Source of the DNA: a virus
DNA length: 39,557 nucleotides
Strand: one strand, 5' to 3'
IMG/VR virus record: IMGVR_UViG_3300003631_000007
Coordinates: 1 to 39,557 of that record
Shown: positions 3,459 to 29,908 of the stretch, piece by piece
How the letters are laid out: every line of letters begins with the position of its first letter
Position numbering within the stretch: the first letter of the stretch is position 1
The notes under the pieces: model-generated
Told to the model about the DNA's origin: nothing
Databases searched by the model: none
What the model saw: only the letters and a program-made list of their open reading frames with translations
Program-made: the position numbers and the translations under genes

Positions 3459-3994
3459 AGTTCACTCTCCGAAAGCGCGCCCGCGGCCGTTAGGTCCGAT
3501 ATGGCTCTGGACTTAGCTCTGGTATCGGCAAACCTAACAAATTCGTTGTCATCAACGCCACTCTCGGTTAGGTAGCCCTCTCCGTGAGCCTCCGCACACC
3601 GTCCGTCCGGCATTTCAGCCCGCGCATGAACAACCACACCTTTCGGATCGTCAAAGGTAGCAACCACTTCGCTGGTTGTCGAGATACCCAGCTCCGTTTG
3701 CATGTAGCGGAACCCCCGCTTTGAAATCGCGGGTGTCCCCTGAATCGTATTCACAAAGTCGTCATTAATCCCTCGGAGGTAACTAATCGGGTGACTGATT
3801 AGCTCTTGGCCGTTCGATTCGGTTGTGACCGTCTCTGCCGTCACGGGTTCGGCTTCTTTCGGGCCGCCGTCTGTCTGCGGGGTTTCGCTTTCGTATTCAA
3901 CCCCGCGTTCATCCAGCAAGTCGCACGTATCTTTGAACTCTTGCCTATCCGTGAACTCTTTTTCTTTGCCGTTGTATTTGATTGTGTATGTCAT
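3455..3994 (-). CDS. Putative single-strand annealing/recombination protein
   Basis: A 179-aa protein. The first 75 residues are charged and low-complexity; the rest (about 76-179) has the pattern of phage annealing and Rad52-like proteins: KRGFRYMQTELGI, then VVVHARAEMPDGRCAEAHGEG, then a basic helix RFADTRAKSRAISDLTAAG resembling the ETRAxxRAL helix of such proteins. The role, if correct, is annealing of single strands during viral recombination, which fits a genome with Hjc and MCM. The family match is by pattern only, and an unrelated nucleic-acid-binding role remains possible. Confidence 0.5.
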   Translation of the reverse strand: MTYTIKYNGKEKEFTDRQEFKDTCDLLDERGVEYESETPQTDGGPKEAEPVTAETVTTESNGQELISHPISYLRGINDDFVNTIQGTPAISKRGFRYMQTELGISTTSEVVATFDDPKGVVVHARAEMPDGRCAEAHGEGYLTESGVDDNEFVRFADTRAKSRAISDLTAAGALSESEL

Positions 3995-7107: not shown

Positions 7108-7232
7108 TGCCGAACTGGTATGAGTGGGTGTGTGTCGAGTGTGGGGAAACAACCCGGAACACGGATAACGGATCTCGGAGTTTGAAGCCGTGTCTGAACT
7201 GCGAACAGGTTACGACCCACGAACGGGAATAG
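7107..7232 (+). CDS. Small zinc-ribbon protein (41 aa)
   Basis: Contains CVEC (9-12) and CLNC (29-32), a complete minimal zinc ribbon. Starts on the last base of the preceding stop. Its own stop overlaps the first base of the inverted repeat at 7232-7252, and no gene follows for 181 nt, so it closes this gene run. Confidence 0.65.
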   Translation: MPNWYEWVCVECGETTRNTDNGSRSLKPCLNCEQVTTHERE

Positions 7233-7252
7233 TGTTACAGGGGTTGTAACAC
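7232..7252. promoter_or_regulatory. Perfect inverted repeat, putative operator
   Basis: Eight-base arms GTGTTACA (7232-7239) and TGTAACAC (7245-7252) are exact reverse complements around a 5-nt spacer. It lies 13 nt upstream of the TATA box at 7266-7272, a position suited to a dimeric activator or repressor. A hairpin at the mRNA end of the upstream gene is the alternative. Confidence 0.6.
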
Positions 7253-7265
7253 CCGCAACCGGACA

Positions 7266-7272
7266 TTTATAT
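7266..7272 (+). promoter_or_regulatory. TATA box of the structured-RNA transcript
   Basis: TTTATAT is a near-consensus haloarchaeal TATA box. Initiation about 22-27 nt downstream of its centre would fall near 7292-7297, just before the first helix of the predicted RNA. Confidence 0.6.
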
Positions 7273-7297
7273 GCCCCCGCGTCCTTGTTGTCACTAA

Positions 7298-7393
7298 GCG
7301 ACAAGACGAACGCACCAAAAGGACCGCGGTGGCTCGTGTCTCCTTTTGGTTCCGTGCCGGTATAAGCCTACCGGACACGGGAGAGTCTGTCGC
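7298..7393 (+). ncRNA. Predicted three-way-junction RNA or structured 5' leader
   Basis: Three helices nest as a closed junction. P1 pairs GCGACA/GAC (7298-7303, 7305-7307; A7304 bulged) with GTC/TGTCGC (7385-7393). P2 is a perfect 10-bp helix, 7314-7323 with 7341-7350 (ACCAAAAGGA/TCCTTTTGGT). P3 pairs 7352-7362 with 7369-7380 (11 bp, A7375 bulged, 6-nt loop TAAGCC). A small fourth hairpin (7392-7396 with 7403-7407) lies just before the ATG at 7414. An alternative pairing, 7288-7292 with 7300-7304, would compete with P1. No plus-strand gene overlaps it. It may be a separate RNA or a cis-acting leader; I do not recognise a known class. Confidence 0.6.
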
Positions 7394-7413
7394 GTGAACA
7401 GCCACGCAAGACC

Positions 7414-7539
7414 ATGACAGAACGAATCTGTGGCGCACTTGGGTGCCACAACGACGCGGACGGCGTAACGCCTGATGGAAAGCACACGTGCCTGACGTGT
7501 GCCGACGCGAACGGCTGGAAGGTGGAGCTATATGAGTGA
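7414..7539 (+). CDS. Small zinc-finger protein (41 aa) downstream of structured leader
   Basis: Reads MTERICGALGCHND then CLTC: four cysteines (6, 11, 26, 29) with an intervening His, a likely zinc finger. First gene after the predicted RNA element, so its translation may be affected by that fold. Overlaps the next gene by 8 bp. Confidence 0.65.
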   Translation: MTERICGALGCHNDADGVTPDGKHTCLTCADANGWKVELYE

Positions 7540-7687
7540 CGACTGGACCGAACGTTGCCCCGGCTGTGGCAAGGATCATGCCGACTGGACCGATGAGGGA
7601 ACGGCTCGGAACAGCGACGGCCGCACCATGCTTGACCTGTGGCGCTGTGATCGCTGCGGCTACATGGCTGAGGGGGTTCGGCTATGA
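7532..7687 (+). CDS. Zinc-ribbon protein (51 aa)
   Basis: Start set at ATG 7532, overlapping the previous stop. CPGC (9-12) and CDRC (39-42) form a clear ribbon with an intervening acidic loop. Coupled by 4 bp to the GIY-YIG-like gene. Confidence 0.65.
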   Translation: MSDDWTERCPGCGKDHADWTDEGTARNSDGRTMLDLWRCDRCGYMAEGVRL

Positions 7688-8124
7688 GTGAACAGCAGAT
7701 ATACGTGGTTTCATACCACGATGTGACTACCAAACGTCATGTGCCCGAAAACGGCCCGCTAACGGTGAAAAACACGTTTGTGAGCGACTACGCCGATTAC
7801 CATAAGATTGGTATCGCGGAAGATCCGCAAACCCGTGTTTCAACGATGAGTTCAGCGACACCTAATGAACTACGCTTAGTCACAACCATTGAAGCTGATG
7901 ACGCAAAGACTGCCGAGAAACACCTACATAATATATTCAGGAGTAGGAACCACCACCGGGAGTGGTTCAAACTCACGGCAAAGGGGATCAATTCGCTTGA
8001 AGGGTTAGAACACGTTCAAGCAGAGAATCTTAAGACGTTAGCACATAAGAGACGGCGGTGTGATTGGGACCACGACAAAGGTCTATACGTCATGCTCATG
8101 GAAGAGCGAGGTGGTGACGAATGA
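7684..8124 (+). CDS. T5orf172/GIY-YIG-like nuclease domain protein
   Basis: A 146-aa protein whose residues about 38-97 fit the T5orf172/MUG113 branch of the GIY-YIG fold: YHKIGIAEDPQTRVSTM, then AEKHLHNIF, then REWFKL. The KIG strand, R51, H80/H82 and E93 occupy the usual active-site positions. Such proteins are common in viruses and may nick DNA; cleavage by this one is not shown. The C-terminal 45 residues are charged and unassigned. Confidence 0.7.
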   Translation: MSEQQIYVVSYHDVTTKRHVPENGPLTVKNTFVSDYADYHKIGIAEDPQTRVSTMSSATPNELRLVTTIEADDAKTAEKHLHNIFRSRNHHREWFKLTAKGINSLEGLEHVQAENLKTLAHKRRRCDWDHDKGLYVMLMEERGGDE

Positions 8125-8249
8125 CCCGGAACGGCGGAAATCACGGCGCTTACACCCCCGTACAGCAACAACAACAACAACAAACTAAAAATAATATTAT
8201 TGTATTATTGTTATTGGTGGGGGTTGTCGGAGGTGGTCGCGGTGAGTAA
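8121..8249 (+). CDS. Poly-Gln small membrane peptide (42 aa)
   Basis: Reads from ATG 8121 (4-bp overlap with the previous stop) to TAA 8249. A run of seven Gln encoded mostly by CAA repeats is followed by a hydrophobic stretch IIVLLLLVGVV. Coupling on both sides supports translation, but the CAA and ATT repeats are also what a low-complexity DNA element would give, so the gene call is tentative. Confidence 0.45.
   Translation: MTRNGGNHGAYTPVQQQQQQQTKNNIIVLLLLVGVVGGGRGE
8186..8216. other. Extreme AT-rich tract with palindrome upstream of the mcm operon
   Basis: This 31-nt tract is nearly all A/T and includes the perfect 12-bp palindrome AATAATATTATT (8190-8201). It follows a (CAA) repeat at 8165-8183. 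It stands out in an otherwise balanced sequence and could serve as an unwinding element or a promoter for the RHH-mcm pair. Both uses are inference. Confidence 0.4.
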
Positions 8250-8667
8250 GAACAACATTTCTGCGACGGTTGATGACGACGTGTATGAGTTTGTCCAACA
8301 GGACCATATCAACACGTCCGGGCTGGTGAACCAATGCCTCAAGCAGTACATGAACACGGGTGGCGACGTGTCCGCCGTGAGAGACTTGCGGATTCAACAG
8401 TTGATGGATGAAGCCGAAGAGTACGACACGCTCGCGGAAAAGAAGCGTGAACAGGCCGAAGAGCTTCAAGAAGCGTATGAGCGTGCGGAAGCCGAAGACA
8501 CCGAAGAGCGGCGGCAAGAAGTGATCGATAACGCCGAGAATATCCCCGCCGATCCGTCGCACCCGCACTTTGTCGAAGCGGAGGGTGTGGATATGACGCC
8601 CGAAGAGTTAGCGAAAGCCGCGGCCGAAGAGTACAACAAGGAATACGACCCTTACGATAACGCATGA
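8242..8667 (+). CDS. RHH-coiled-coil protein upstream of MCM
   Basis: A 141-aa protein with a GTG start at 8242 that overlaps the previous stop. Residues 4-35 look like a ribbon-helix-helix domain (NNISATVDDDVYEFVQ, then TSGLVNQCLKQYM). Residues 50-100 are a long charged helix, probably coiled coil (EEYDTLAEKKREQAEELQEA). The last 40 residues are acidic. It overlaps mcm by 4 bp, so it may act with the helicase, as an origin-binding or loading factor, or regulate the operon. Confidence 0.65.
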   Translation: MSKNNISATVDDDVYEFVQQDHINTSGLVNQCLKQYMNTGGDVSAVRDLRIQQLMDEAEEYDTLAEKKREQAEELQEAYERAEAEDTEERRQEVIDNAENIPADPSHPHFVEAEGVDMTPEELAKAAAEEYNKEYDPYDNA

Positions 8668-10673
8668 TTCCACGCAACACAACCATCAAACACGACATAA
8701 TCGGAGAGTTCGGGGAGTTCCTTAGCCGATACTATAGGGACGAAATCGCAACGGCGCTTCAAAACGGTGAGCGGAGTATCACTGTGGAATATAGCGATCT
8801 ATTCCAATTTGATAGCGACCTCGCACAAGATTATCTCGACAAGCCGGAGATTATGGTTCCACAGTTGGACCGGGCAACGACCGAGGTAGATATGCCGAAC
8901 CCGGACGCCGAAAGCGACCTCGCACGTATGACCGTCCGCGTTGCTGGTGTTGATGACGAAGACCTACCCGTGTCGGGTCTTCGGGACCACCATAGGGACC
9001 GCTATCTCGGCGTACGCGGACAAGTGAGCATGGCCACGCAAGTTCAGCCGCGGGTCGTTGAAGCCGTGTTCCGGTGCGAACGGTGTTCAACAAGCGACAG
9101 CGATTTCTACTTAGACCCGATCCCGCAAACCGGCGAAGAGCTTCAACTTCCGAGTGATTGTCCGGGTTGCGAGCGGCAGGGTCCGTTTACCCTTGATGAA
9201 TCCAAATCTACCATGGTCGACCACCAGATAGTTGAGTTGACCGACGAGCCGGGGGAGTCTTTCGGGGCAAACGCGAATAGCGTCCCGGTTCATCTATATC
9301 GTGACGCGGCGGGGAACGTTATGCCGGGCGATAGGGTCCGCGTTAATGGGCACGTCACGACCGACCTCGCACAGATCCGATCCCAGCAAAAGATACCCAC
9401 CCGCCGGCCGTGGAAGGTTGAAGGCCGTGCGGTCGACGCCGAACAAGTAGCCTTTTCGGAGGTTGAACCCGAGCATTTGGATGAAATCAAGCGTCTCTCC
9501 AAACAGGATGACCTTGTGAATCTGTTTGTAGATTCAATCGCACCGAATATCCTCACCGACGAGAGAGGCGACACGCACAAGCTCGCGTTAGTTCTTGCCT
9601 TGTTCGGGGCGGTCGACCGCGACGGCCGCAAGGGAGATATTAACGTCTTTCTGGTTGGCGAGAAAGGCACGGGGAAAAGTCAAATGCTTTCCCGAGTTGC
9701 GGACCTCGCACCGAAGAGCGTTGAAGCCTCCGGGAAGGGAGCGACCGCGGCCGGGCTTACAGCAACGGCGACACAATCCGACCATAGCGACGGGTGGATG
9801 CTTGATGCTGGTGCGTTAGTCTTAGCCTCTGGTGGATTAGCCGCGATTGACGAGTTCGACAAAATGTCTGATGGGGCGCGTAAGAGCATGCATGAAGCCA
9901 TGGAACAACAGCGGATTCCCGTGAACAAGGCCGGTATCAACACCGTTCTCCCGGCAAAGACGGCGATCCTCGCGGCCGCTAATCCGACCGGCGGGAGCTA
10001 CCACCGATACACACCCCTATACGACCAAATTAATCTTGAGGCTCCGCTTATCTCTCGGTTTGACCTTATCTTTGCGTTGACCGCGCTTGTCGACGCCGAG
10101 AGAGACGCGGAGATAGCCGCACACCAGATTTCCGCGGAGGATACGACCCAACCCATTGATGACCAACTCATAACCGAGTACGTGGCGTATGCGCGCCAGC
10201 ACGTCGACCCGAAGATCCCCGAAGGGAGCGACGTTGAACAGCGGTTGGTGGATTACTACGTTGACCTTCGGGAGAAAACGGAACAGGATGACGGAAGTTC
10301 TACCTTCGGCCCGCGGACGAACGACGCACTTCGACGCCTTGCCGAAGCGTCCGCGCGGATGCGATTAGACGACACGGTTCGGATGGAAGACGCCGAGCGA
10401 GCGATCCAACTTAAGCAGATGCACATCGGGGATACTGGTGTGACCGAAGAGGGTGAGATTGACGGCAACAAGATGAGCGGCTATGAAGACGGTGATTCAA
10501 TCCGCTCGCAAATCAAAGGTGCGTTACATGATACGGAGTGGCAATACCCGTCCGATATAGCTGGTGAAACGGGGATTGCCGAACCGAAGGTTCGTGACGT
10601 ATTAGAACGCGCTCGGGATGGGAAGATTACCCTGCCGGTTGAAGAGGCAAACGGGAAATGGAGGATTGACTAA
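8664..10673 (+). CDS. mcm: MCM replicative helicase
   Basis: A 669-aa archaeal-type MCM, the 3'-5' replicative DNA helicase. The N-terminal domain has a zinc site (C138, C141, C166, C169). The AAA+ core shows Walker A GEKGTGKS (332-339), Walker B AIDEFDKM (394-401), sensor-1 N440 in AAANPTGG and the arginine finger in SRFDLIF (R465). The C-terminal about 60 residues fit the usual winged helix. Length is close to cellular MCMs. It presumably assembles a ring at the viral origin and recruits host polymerase, since no viral polymerase is seen. Confidence 0.97.
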   Translation: MIPRNTTIKHDIIGEFGEFLSRYYRDEIATALQNGERSITVEYSDLFQFDSDLAQDYLDKPEIMVPQLDRATTEVDMPNPDAESDLARMTVRVAGVDDEDLPVSGLRDHHRDRYLGVRGQVSMATQVQPRVVEAVFRCERCSTSDSDFYLDPIPQTGEELQLPSDCPGCERQGPFTLDESKSTMVDHQIVELTDEPGESFGANANSVPVHLYRDAAGNVMPGDRVRVNGHVTTDLAQIRSQQKIPTRRPWKVEGRAVDAEQVAFSEVEPEHLDEIKRLSKQDDLVNLFVDSIAPNILTDERGDTHKLALVLALFGAVDRDGRKGDINVFLVGEKGTGKSQMLSRVADLAPKSVEASGKGATAAGLTATATQSDHSDGWMLDAGALVLASGGLAAIDEFDKMSDGARKSMHEAMEQQRIPVNKAGINTVLPAKTAILAAANPTGGSYHRYTPLYDQINLEAPLISRFDLIFALTALVDAERDAEIAAHQISAEDTTQPIDDQLITEYVAYARQHVDPKIPEGSDVEQRLVDYYVDLREKTEQDDGSSTFGPRTNDALRRLAEASARMRLDDTVRMEDAERAIQLKQMHIGDTGVTEEGEIDGNKMSGYEDGDSIRSQIKGALHDTEWQYPSDIAGETGIAEPKVRDVLERARDGKITLPVEEANGKWRID

Positions 10674-10912
10674 TGAGCGACCGCGCACCAAGAGGGCGGA
10701 AGGATAGCAACGCGGGCGAACAGACGCACAGAGCGGAAGCCAGACGGTTCTTAGGGACAAGTATGGCACAGGCCATGATTAGACGCTTAGGACAAGATGA
10801 AGAGCGTACCCGAGCGTGGATGGGCGTCGCCAATGATCTACACCAGAAGGGAGAACTCGGATCGGGAGTTGTCGAGAACATAGCCGAGAAAGTGAGCGAG
10901 GCACAAGAATAG
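10673..10912 (+). CDS. Hypothetical basic-acidic protein (79 aa) coupled to mcm
   Basis: Begins on the last base of the mcm stop. Basic N-terminus (RAPRGRK) followed by predicted helices (RAEARRFLGTSMAQAMIRRL). No cysteine and no family recognised. Coupling suggests a replication accessory, but there is no direct evidence. Confidence 0.65.
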   Translation: MSDRAPRGRKDSNAGEQTHRAEARRFLGTSMAQAMIRRLGQDEERTRAWMGVANDLHQKGELGSGVVENIAEKVSEAQE

Positions 10913-10920
10913 GCCCAAAT

Positions 10921-10931
10921 CTATAAGTGGG
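10921..10931 (+). promoter_or_regulatory. TATA element, upstream copy
   Basis: AAATCTATAAGTGGG follows the end of the mcm operon. It shares AATCTATAAGT with 10993-11003 and matches the minus-strand element at 4362-4372. Initiation near 10950 would give a leader of about 80 nt before the next ATG. Confidence 0.5.
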
Positions 10932-10994
10932 AACCGTTCGCATAGGCAAGCGTCATTGTTGTGTTGTGTGCGTCCTTCACGGGGCGTTTCGCTA

Positions 10995-25376: not shown

Positions 25377-26317
25377 GTCATTCAGGCGCGTGCTACGCCG
25401 AGAATCTAAGCCTTAGAAACGATCCGACAAAGACCTTAGAGGTACGTCAAAACTTTCTCCAAGACATTCGGGGGCGATTTAGACGGTTAAGTGGTGTTAT
25501 CCGCAGAGCTATCGGCCCTGAAAATGACGTACTCAAGTTAAGCCAAAATATTGACGCCCCCGAAGCGTTTGACTTCCCAACCGACAGGGAAAAGATCCAA
25601 GCGTTTCAGGAATGGCTCAAAGAGACAATTGAAAATGAGGTGTTGGAACCAGCAAGCTTCACGGAACTCCGAGAGGGCAACCATTGGACAAACGACTATA
25701 TCCGAAGCGCCTACCTCATCGGTCGGAACGTGGCGATTGGGCGGTTGAAACAAGAGGGCGTATCTGTCGAGAACTTACCTAACAGCGAATTACTCCAAAC
25801 GCGAACGTCAATCAAGACACTCCGGGATCTATACAGTCGGACGTATGAGAACCTGCGTGATATTACGCAGGATATGGCGGGTGTAATCCGACAAGAACTA
25901 ACCGAAGGGTTTGCTCAAGGCGAGAACCCGACAAAAATGGCTCGCCGGATAACGAAGGAAGTCAAAGATATACAGCGGACCCGCGCGGAAACCTTAGCGA
26001 GAACGGAAACCATCAACGCTGCGACCCAAGCCACATTAGACGAATACGAGCGCGCGGGGGTTGACGGCGTGTCTCACGGTGAATGGAACGCAACGCAAGC
26101 CGGAGCGTGTCCGTTCTGTCGAAGACTTAGTGGTGAACAGTTCACAGTATCAGAGTTCCGCGCAAATCACGCCGTTCGTTTCCGCGGCCAAACATACCGT
26201 TTAGCCCCGCCAGCACACCCGAACGGCCGATGTGCTATCATGCCGACAATTGGGTTAGACCCGGATTCATTAGATCCGCTTAGTGAGCGCGTTCCGGGAG
26301 AGTTGTTGAGTGACTAA
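25373..26317 (+). CDS. Minor head protein, phage Mu F/SPP1 gp7-like
   Basis: A 314-aa protein. The C-terminal part is the Mu F domain: RAETLARTETINAATQA (205-221), GEWNAT (236-241), then CPFC (246-249) and HPNGRC (282-287), a Cys/His set probably binding metal. These proteins bind the portal and participate in head morphogenesis or DNA injection. It follows the portal region, the usual gene order. The N-terminal 150 residues are helical. Confidence 0.85.
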   Translation: MSHSGACYAENLSLRNDPTKTLEVRQNFLQDIRGRFRRLSGVIRRAIGPENDVLKLSQNIDAPEAFDFPTDREKIQAFQEWLKETIENEVLEPASFTELREGNHWTNDYIRSAYLIGRNVAIGRLKQEGVSVENLPNSELLQTRTSIKTLRDLYSRTYENLRDITQDMAGVIRQELTEGFAQGENPTKMARRITKEVKDIQRTRAETLARTETINAATQATLDEYERAGVDGVSHGEWNATQAGACPFCRRLSGEQFTVSEFRANHAVRFRGQTYRLAPPAHPNGRCAIMPTIGLDPDSLDPLSERVPGELLSD

Positions 26318-28864: not shown

Positions 28865-29908
28865 ATGTCTGACGCAAACGTTACGAACGCGGAGAGTATG
28901 GATTACGGCGGTGCGGCGTGGGGTGCTGGTTGGGATTGGTTCAGCATGAACCAGAACCAGCGAAAGGCCTACGCCGCCAACGCTATGGCGTCGAACGCTT
29001 CGACGCTTGAGCGCGACGAGTATGAAACCCTTTCCGACCGGATTATTCAGACCTTCAAGCGTGCGCTTGTTGGTCTTGATGACCTTCAGGAACAGGGCCT
29101 CACCCGGAATATCAGCCTTGCCACGCAGGTGGACTTGTGGCAAACCATGTCCGAGGTAACGGAGGCTGATATTACGATGGACGGGGAGGATCAGGCCGAT
29201 AATGATCGGATTGAGTACACTACCGAGGGTGTTCCGGTCCCGATTATTCACAAGGACTTCCGTATCCCCCAGCGAGAGCTTGAAACCTCCCGCCGGATGA
29301 ACAACGACCTTCGGACGGACACGGCCGCGGAAGTCTCGCGTGCGGTCGCGGAAATGGCGAATCAGATGCTCTTTCAGGGGTGGAACCCCGGCGTGTCTAC
29401 CGAGCGGGGGGACACCTTTGAGGTGTATGGCTACACTTCTTCGGACGTTGCGGCCCCGGTAAGTGGGTCGGACTTCGGAACTGAAACGAACATCCGTGAC
29501 GCCTTTGTTGGCGCGATTGACAAGCTCACCGACGAGAATAATCAGGAACCGGCCGGCGACGGGTTCCTCACCTACATTAGTCAGACGCAGTATCGGCAGT
29601 TCCGGTCTGCGATTGACCCCGATGGGGATGGGAACCTCACCGTTCGGGAGCGCGTTGAGAACGAATTTGACATGGAACTCGGGCCGATTCAGTCGGTTCC
29701 TGATTACGTGCTTCCCGATGGGGAAATGGTCATGGTTAATCCGACCCCTGACGTTGTTGAACTTGCGCTTGCGGAAGATATGCAGACTATCGAGTGGTCG
29801 AGTGGGTCCGGCATGACCAACTTCTACAAGGTTATGTGGGCGGGCGCGCCGGAGATTAAGACCGACTCCAAGAACAACAAGGGCGTGGCGCACGTTACCG
29901 GAATCTAA
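28865..29908 (+). CDS. Major capsid protein, HK97-like
   Basis: A 347-aa protein in the head operon between decoration and connector genes, with the length and pattern of HK97-fold capsid proteins: an N-terminal helical arm, VPVPIIHKDFRIPQRELETS (the strand-then-helix signature), a long helix with AAEVSRAVAEMANQML, and C-terminal strands (DYVLPDGEMVMVNP). It forms the icosahedral shell. Codon use is strongly biased to CTT/CTC for Leu, without TTA. Confidence 0.88.
   Translation: MSDANVTNAESMDYGGAAWGAGWDWFSMNQNQRKAYAANAMASNASTLERDEYETLSDRIIQTFKRALVGLDDLQEQGLTRNISLATQVDLWQTMSEVTEADITMDGEDQADNDRIEYTTEGVPVPIIHKDFRIPQRELETSRRMNNDLRTDTAAEVSRAVAEMANQMLFQGWNPGVSTERGDTFEVYGYTSSDVAAPVSGSDFGTETNIRDAFVGAIDKLTDENNQEPAGDGFLTYISQTQYRQFRSAIDPDGDGNLTVRERVENEFDMELGPIQSVPDYVLPDGEMVMVNPTPDVVELALAEDMQTIEWSSGSGMTNFYKVMWAGAPEIKTDSKNNKGVAHVTGI

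Follow-up and report, generated by a model that had tools for sequence, protein, structure and literature searches.

The DNA analysed here is a viral stretch of 39,557 nt (IMG/VR record IMGVR_UViG_3300003631_000007, positions 1 to 39,557; hereafter the window), in which positions 7296-7413 most plausibly form a structured 5' leader, about 118 nt long, on the mRNA of an early/replication operon. Comparative sequence evidence proves that its RNA fold is conserved. The same comparisons showed that the fold occupies a 5'-terminal place relative to a TATA box, that an ATG lies nearby, and that it recurs across virus families before different first genes. As a full explanation, we give the structured leader somewhat better than even chances.

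Fold and covariation of the element

Two hairpins enclosed by a closing stem, P1, make up a closed three-way junction (Table 1). Base-by-base reading confirmed all three helices exactly as a preliminary description had placed them, together with the TATA box it had named just upstream. The description had also held such nesting to be very unlikely by chance in 96 nt. The fold of 7288-7413 reaches -51.5 kcal/mol (z -3.84), and none of 200 dinucleotide shuffles folded as well. Positions 7291-7394 are among the strongest local folds on the + strand of the window (z about -5.2); similar z values are reached by several further stretches that overlap or adjoin coding sequence, so that folding energy alone is no proof of an element.

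Table 1. Positions of the leader, its promoter and following genes in the window, and of three diverged leaders
Feature	Position	Strand	Remarks
8-bp inverted repeat GTGTTACA-ggggt-TGTAACAC	7232..7252	.	just upstream of promoter; same sequence before BLv36 leader
TATA box TTTATAT of leader promoter	7266..7272	+	sequence reading
Predicted transcription start	7296	+	first T of TATA box + 30, from the usual archaeal TATA spacing
Closing stem P1, 5' strand	7298..7307	+	one bulged A; 9 pairs with 7385-7393
Junction strand GAACGC	7308..7313	+	GWWCGC in class A, BLv36, HFTV1, HSTV-1
Hairpin 1, lower stem	7314-7323 ACCAAAAGGA / 7341-7350 TCCTTTTGGT	+	perfect pairing, invariant
Hairpin 1, apical stem	7326-7328/7335-7337	+	loop GUGGCU; hairpin 1 spans 7314..7350
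Hairpin 2	7352..7380 (7352-7362/7369-7380)	+	bulge A7375, CCGG...CCGG core, UAAG-type loop
Closing stem P1, 3' strand	7385..7393	+	base-by-base reading, covariation
Spacer to start codon	7394..7413	+	without Shine-Dalgarno-like motif or T-run
First ORF, 41-aa CxxC (zinc-ribbon-like) protein	7414..7539	+	same protein behind HRTV-29 and BLv36 leaders
MCM replicative helicase gene	8664..10673	+	Pfam MCM, E 1.1e-71; in operon behind leader
BLv36 leader	10849-10942		replication operon; folds as 5'-terminal three-way junction
HFTV1 leader	29275-29372		replication operon; folds as 5'-terminal three-way junction
HSTV-1 leader	25515-25605		replication operon; folds as 5'-terminal three-way junction

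Three other records carry the element at about 73-82% blastn identity. HRTV-29 (Haloferuviridae) and HRTV-28 (Suolaviridae), both isolated viruses, were found by blastn of annotated phages, and IMG/VR contig 3300007668_000010 by scanning for the conserved block. The match between the window and HRTV-29 runs on into the 41-aa CxxC protein, which is 95% identical. In HRTV-28 it spans 7295-7392, the RNA alone, with unmatched flanks and a different downstream gene.

These four sequences formed the covariation alignment, in which 29 base pairs were counted; the diverged leaders were left out because they share too little sequence. Pairing was intact in 98.3% of the pair cells of this four-sequence alignment, none of 500 shuffles was as good, and sliding the partners by 1-3 columns as a control lowered pairing to about 40%. 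The preliminary description had named a lack of compensatory base changes in related haloviruses as evidence against the fold; such changes were found in seven of the 29 pairs (two in the closing stem, one in the apical stem of hairpin 1 and four in hairpin 2). All cells of the nine P1 pairs are paired, and in the apical stem of hairpin 1 a C-G pair becomes U-A with pairing maintained. Eight lower pairs of hairpin 1 are invariant and therefore silent on covariation. Furthermore, four cells on the + strand are G-U and none is A-C, which indicates that the element works as + strand RNA, and non-triplet indels of 1-2 nt in hairpin 1 argue against a coding explanation.

This strand asymmetry also bears on whether the conserved entity is a DNA element, such as a replication origin or a cruciform, as its location in the MCM/replication region of several viruses might suggest. 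We consider this highly improbable: the G-U pairs occur on one strand only, the TATA spacing is fixed, and the element is present before operons without an annotated MCM gene (HRTV-28, HRTV-4) and in a contig without an MCM match (IMG/VR 3300022777_000021, contig G005).

Diverged leaders in other haloviruses

Nine leaders were assembled in all. Five of them are diverged and came to light on inspection of one chosen place, the gap that precedes the replication/early operon. For those of BLv36, HFTV1 and HSTV-1, the junction appeared at equal or lower energy in 4, 0 and 2 per 1000 shuffles, respectively; among control segments upstream of ATGs, 157 of 2793 (5.6%) formed a three-way junction at all. 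BLv36 and HFTV1 have the junction strand GWWCGC and a CCGG..CCGG hairpin. The leader is the sole strict match to the motif GWWCGC..CCGG..CCGG on the + strand of BLv36 and the sole match on both strands of HFTV1, where it is also the most structured (z -4.64) of 13 promoter-sized gaps. For the HSTV-1 leader, the shared features are GAACGC and the block CCGCGGU..CGUGUCU. HRTV-4 and contig G005, whose membership is tentative, represent a third and looser variant, which heads an early operon and carries AAGCAGAAAGCGAC at its 5' end. Neither folds cleanly into a simple three-way junction; the best fold of HRTV-4 is not a plain junction, and a branched fold lies 3 kcal/mol above it.

The covariance model alone did not find BLv36, HFTV1 or HRTV-4, and it scored HSTV-1 at 16.5 bits, which is background level. 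Chance-like matches elsewhere scored 17.1 and 18.4 bits, so the HSTV-1 score alone proves nothing; the position, the fold and the shared CCGCGGU..CGUGUCU block are what argue for its membership. Weak model matches in ChaoS9 (48157-48255, inside an annotated gene) and in L202 (7793-7886) were taken as chance.

No such leader was seen in HATV-3, BJ1, Humcor1 or HJTV-4, all of which have MCM, and model R1 detected none in HF2, HCTV-1, HCTV-2, HCTV-5, HHTV-1, HHTV-2 or HATV-2. Short chance matches were all that the plasmid collection gave, and a scan of genome contigs with the 5' block gave nine bacterial matches, likewise taken as chance. The MCM-based contig collection yielded distant viral contigs only, and the RNA was in none of the seven scanned. 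A search for second copies within the same genomes returned only short sub-threshold matches. As a separate observation, a long gap that folds strongly precedes the replication operon in Humcor1 (L290 960-1121) and BJ1 (L291 939-1153), beside an integrase gene (attP in Humcor1). The two gaps have GCGATAGCGA in common and are a different element.

Promoter spacing, start codon and downstream genes

Every one of the nine leaders has a TTTA box that begins 28-32 nt ahead of the closing stem's first base (32219 to 32189 in contig G005). Eight leaders were measured from predicted start to ATG and gave 99-118 nt. In leaders with a defined closing stem, the stem is followed 7-20 nt later by an ATG that opens the next gene. 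No T5 run or U-run terminator was found before the ATG, and a Shine-Dalgarno-like motif is absent from seven of eight spacers, the exception being GGAG in BLv36. The fixed TATA spacing, the close ATG and the lack of a T-run together mark the element as an mRNA 5' leader. Because it reaches the ATG at 7414 without a terminator, its length comes to about 118 nt. As a side observation, HRTV-29_gp14 is annotated from within the closing stem (L282 3671), whereas conservation places its start at the ATG at 3689. Another lies upstream of the leader TATA box in the window, where GTGTTACAggggtTGTAACAC at 7232-7252 is a perfect 8-bp inverted repeat, found in BLv36 too; it is a possible regulator site.

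The same features bear on another option entertained in the preliminary description, a free-standing small RNA or decoy. Its length would be about 100 nt, with processing or termination near 7393. The compact fold would suit such a molecule, as would HRTV-28, in which the conserved unit is the RNA alone. We nevertheless regard it as very unlikely, there being no T-run or other termination signal and the ATG of the next gene lying so close behind the defined closing stem. The sequences are thus best read as an mRNA leader in preference to a free small RNA.

A leader could also sense a ligand or protein, as a riboswitch or through autoregulation by an operon product, and so hide or expose the start codon. 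Alternative hairpins that pair the P1 3' strand with the start region are consistent with this idea; in BLv36 one extends over 8 bp around the AUG (p about 0.02), and a GGUC/GACC alternative exists in HRTV-29 and IMG/VR contig 3300007668_000010. Across eight leaders, however, the alternative pairing, though significant in some, is mostly at chance, seven of the eight have no Shine-Dalgarno-like site to hide, and the first gene varies between viruses, which argues against simple autoregulation. Riboswitch-type leaders resemble the element in being a conserved fold directly upstream of an ORF, but the element has neither an expression platform (U-run) nor a common metabolic gene downstream, and a sensing leader seems to us rather unlikely. 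The two-state switch suggested in the preliminary description was not borne out. Its competing pairing, 7288-7292/7300-7304, is present at the DNA level. However, 7288-7292 is not conserved and precedes the predicted start at about 7296, which places it outside the predicted transcript. Taken over the whole set, pairing between the P1 3' strand and the start region does not exceed chance. What survives of its riboswitch-like leader is a structured leader in the loose sense, with the first ATG close and no terminator in every relative.

The genes behind the leader also vary in kind. HRTV-28 has a differently annotated first gene. The operon holds MCM in the window, HRTV-29, BLv36, HFTV1 and HSTV-1; MCM is not annotated in the HRTV-28 and HRTV-4 operons, and contig G005 has no match to it, so the common denominator is the early/replication operon and not the helicase. 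The HFTV1 leader stands before gp52-gp60, which RNA-seq defined as an early DNA-metabolism unit with a peak 60 min after infection (PMC12542753).

Several further features of the neighbourhood were observed. A small, unannotated CxxC-type ORF lies directly behind the HSTV-1 leader (25615-25764). The window has a GIY-YIG/T5orf172 family nuclease gene near the leader (7684-8124), and GIY-YIG genes are near the leader in HRTV-28 and HRTV-29 too; these neighbours could explain movement of the RNA between viruses. The interval from the GIY-YIG gene to the ORF that precedes MCM holds an A+T-rich island at 8155-8220, with CAACAACAACAA and inverted repeats that are imperfect. A comparable A+T-rich stretch exists in BLv36. 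The island in the window is a possible replication origin.

Relation to known RNAs and proposed role

Rfam 15 gave no match in the window at the gathering threshold, and at E<=10 the window and the leaders matched only microRNA models at chance level, in keeping with the earlier statement that the class was not recognised. The sequence AGACGAAC may resemble haloarchaeal CRISPR repeats, and a CRISPR-repeat mimic was considered; this sequence is not kept in the diverged members.

The closest known halovirus RNA is the hammerhead of HF1/HF2 (HHphage, RF02276; HF2 NC_003345 10292-10359), which, like the leader, folds into three stems where an early polycistronic transcript begins. This type II hammerhead lies about 12-13 nt upstream of the helicase gene that heads the transcript, and the mRNA 5' end was mapped within 3 nt of its cleavage site (PMC3088659). 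Following this precedent, the leader could cleave itself, either as a new ribozyme or as a type II hammerhead that has diverged strongly, and would then trim the operon mRNA at the junction or between the two hairpins. The stem order is that of a hammerhead, the first junction strand begins with GAA, and hairpin 1 is closed by an A-U pair, like A15.1-U16.1 in hammerhead stem III. However, neither the window nor six other leaders gave a hammerhead match at E<=10. The HF2 hammerhead, as positive control, was recovered at 41 bits (E 2.1e-7); HF2 itself is unmatched by the leader's covariance model. The CUGANGA strand is absent: the strand before P1 reads GAGA/GAGC in the four close members, and the others have no CUGANGA. 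The first junction strand is GAACGC in class A and HSTV-1, but BLv36 (GUUCGC) and HFTV1 (GUACGC) have no GAA. Membership in RF02276 was rejected on the missing model match and the missing core CUGANGA. The leader also differs from the HF1/HF2 RNA in its longer closing stem and in a first gene that is not a helicase. We judge a ribozyme quite unlikely, and a functional analogy to the HF1/HF2 hammerhead possible.

A second precedent is put of phage HK022, which consists of two stem-loops acting on bacterial RNA polymerase. Like the leader, it is structured, occupies the first bases transcribed from an early viral operon and is independent of which gene follows; the leader, in contrast, is archaeal and a closed three-way junction, and antitermination by it is putative. 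As a cis-acting antiterminator or elongation-modifying RNA, the nascent leader would bind RNA polymerase or an elongation factor. Its location at the very start of the early operon, in one copy per genome, and its conserved unpaired bases accord with such a role. Against this, a limited literature search turned up no such archaeal RNA, and neither terminators within the operon nor a second copy at another early promoter were found. This role is unlikely, if worth keeping in mind.

For the structured leader itself, which we favour, post-transcriptional control of the early/replication operon is most likely. Transcription would start at about 7296, such that the first transcript bases form the P1 5' strand, and the three-way junction would close co-transcriptionally, ahead of synthesis of the first ORF, before the mRNA runs on into the genes for the 41-aa zinc protein and MCM. 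Acting after transcription start, the leader would most likely shield the 5' end from 5'-3' decay and present the nearby start codon to the ribosome independently of Shine-Dalgarno pairing. Both proposals fit the layout of a stem that closes right at the 5' end, then a short spacer, then an AUG. Additionally, a viral or host factor may dock at the conserved junction and loop bases and thereby tune early expression.

In Haloferax volcanii, 72% of coding transcripts have no leader, structured leaders were considered atypical (PMC4983044), and Shine-Dalgarno pairing is not used (PMC3986360). The leader resembles haloarchaeal leadered mRNAs without Shine-Dalgarno motifs (PMC3986360, PMC4983044) in having no such motif before the AUG in seven of eight cases, and differs from typical H. 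volcanii transcripts in being long, highly structured and conserved between viruses.

Several unrelated haloarchaeal viruses thus start an early/replication mRNA with the same kind of fold, one that is absent from Rfam and unexpected where mRNAs are mostly leaderless, and the leader is probably a control element. We can imagine, with clearly less than even confidence, that it represents a new class of archaeal viral leader acting in cis on host gene expression, either the first archaeal antiterminator or elongation-control RNA or an internal-entry-like translation element, exchanged as a module between virus families. HFTV1 in Haloferax gibbonsii, a genetically tractable system for which RNA-seq exists, carries a diverged member, and the leader provides a testable handle on Shine-Dalgarno-free leadered translation or on early viral gene control.
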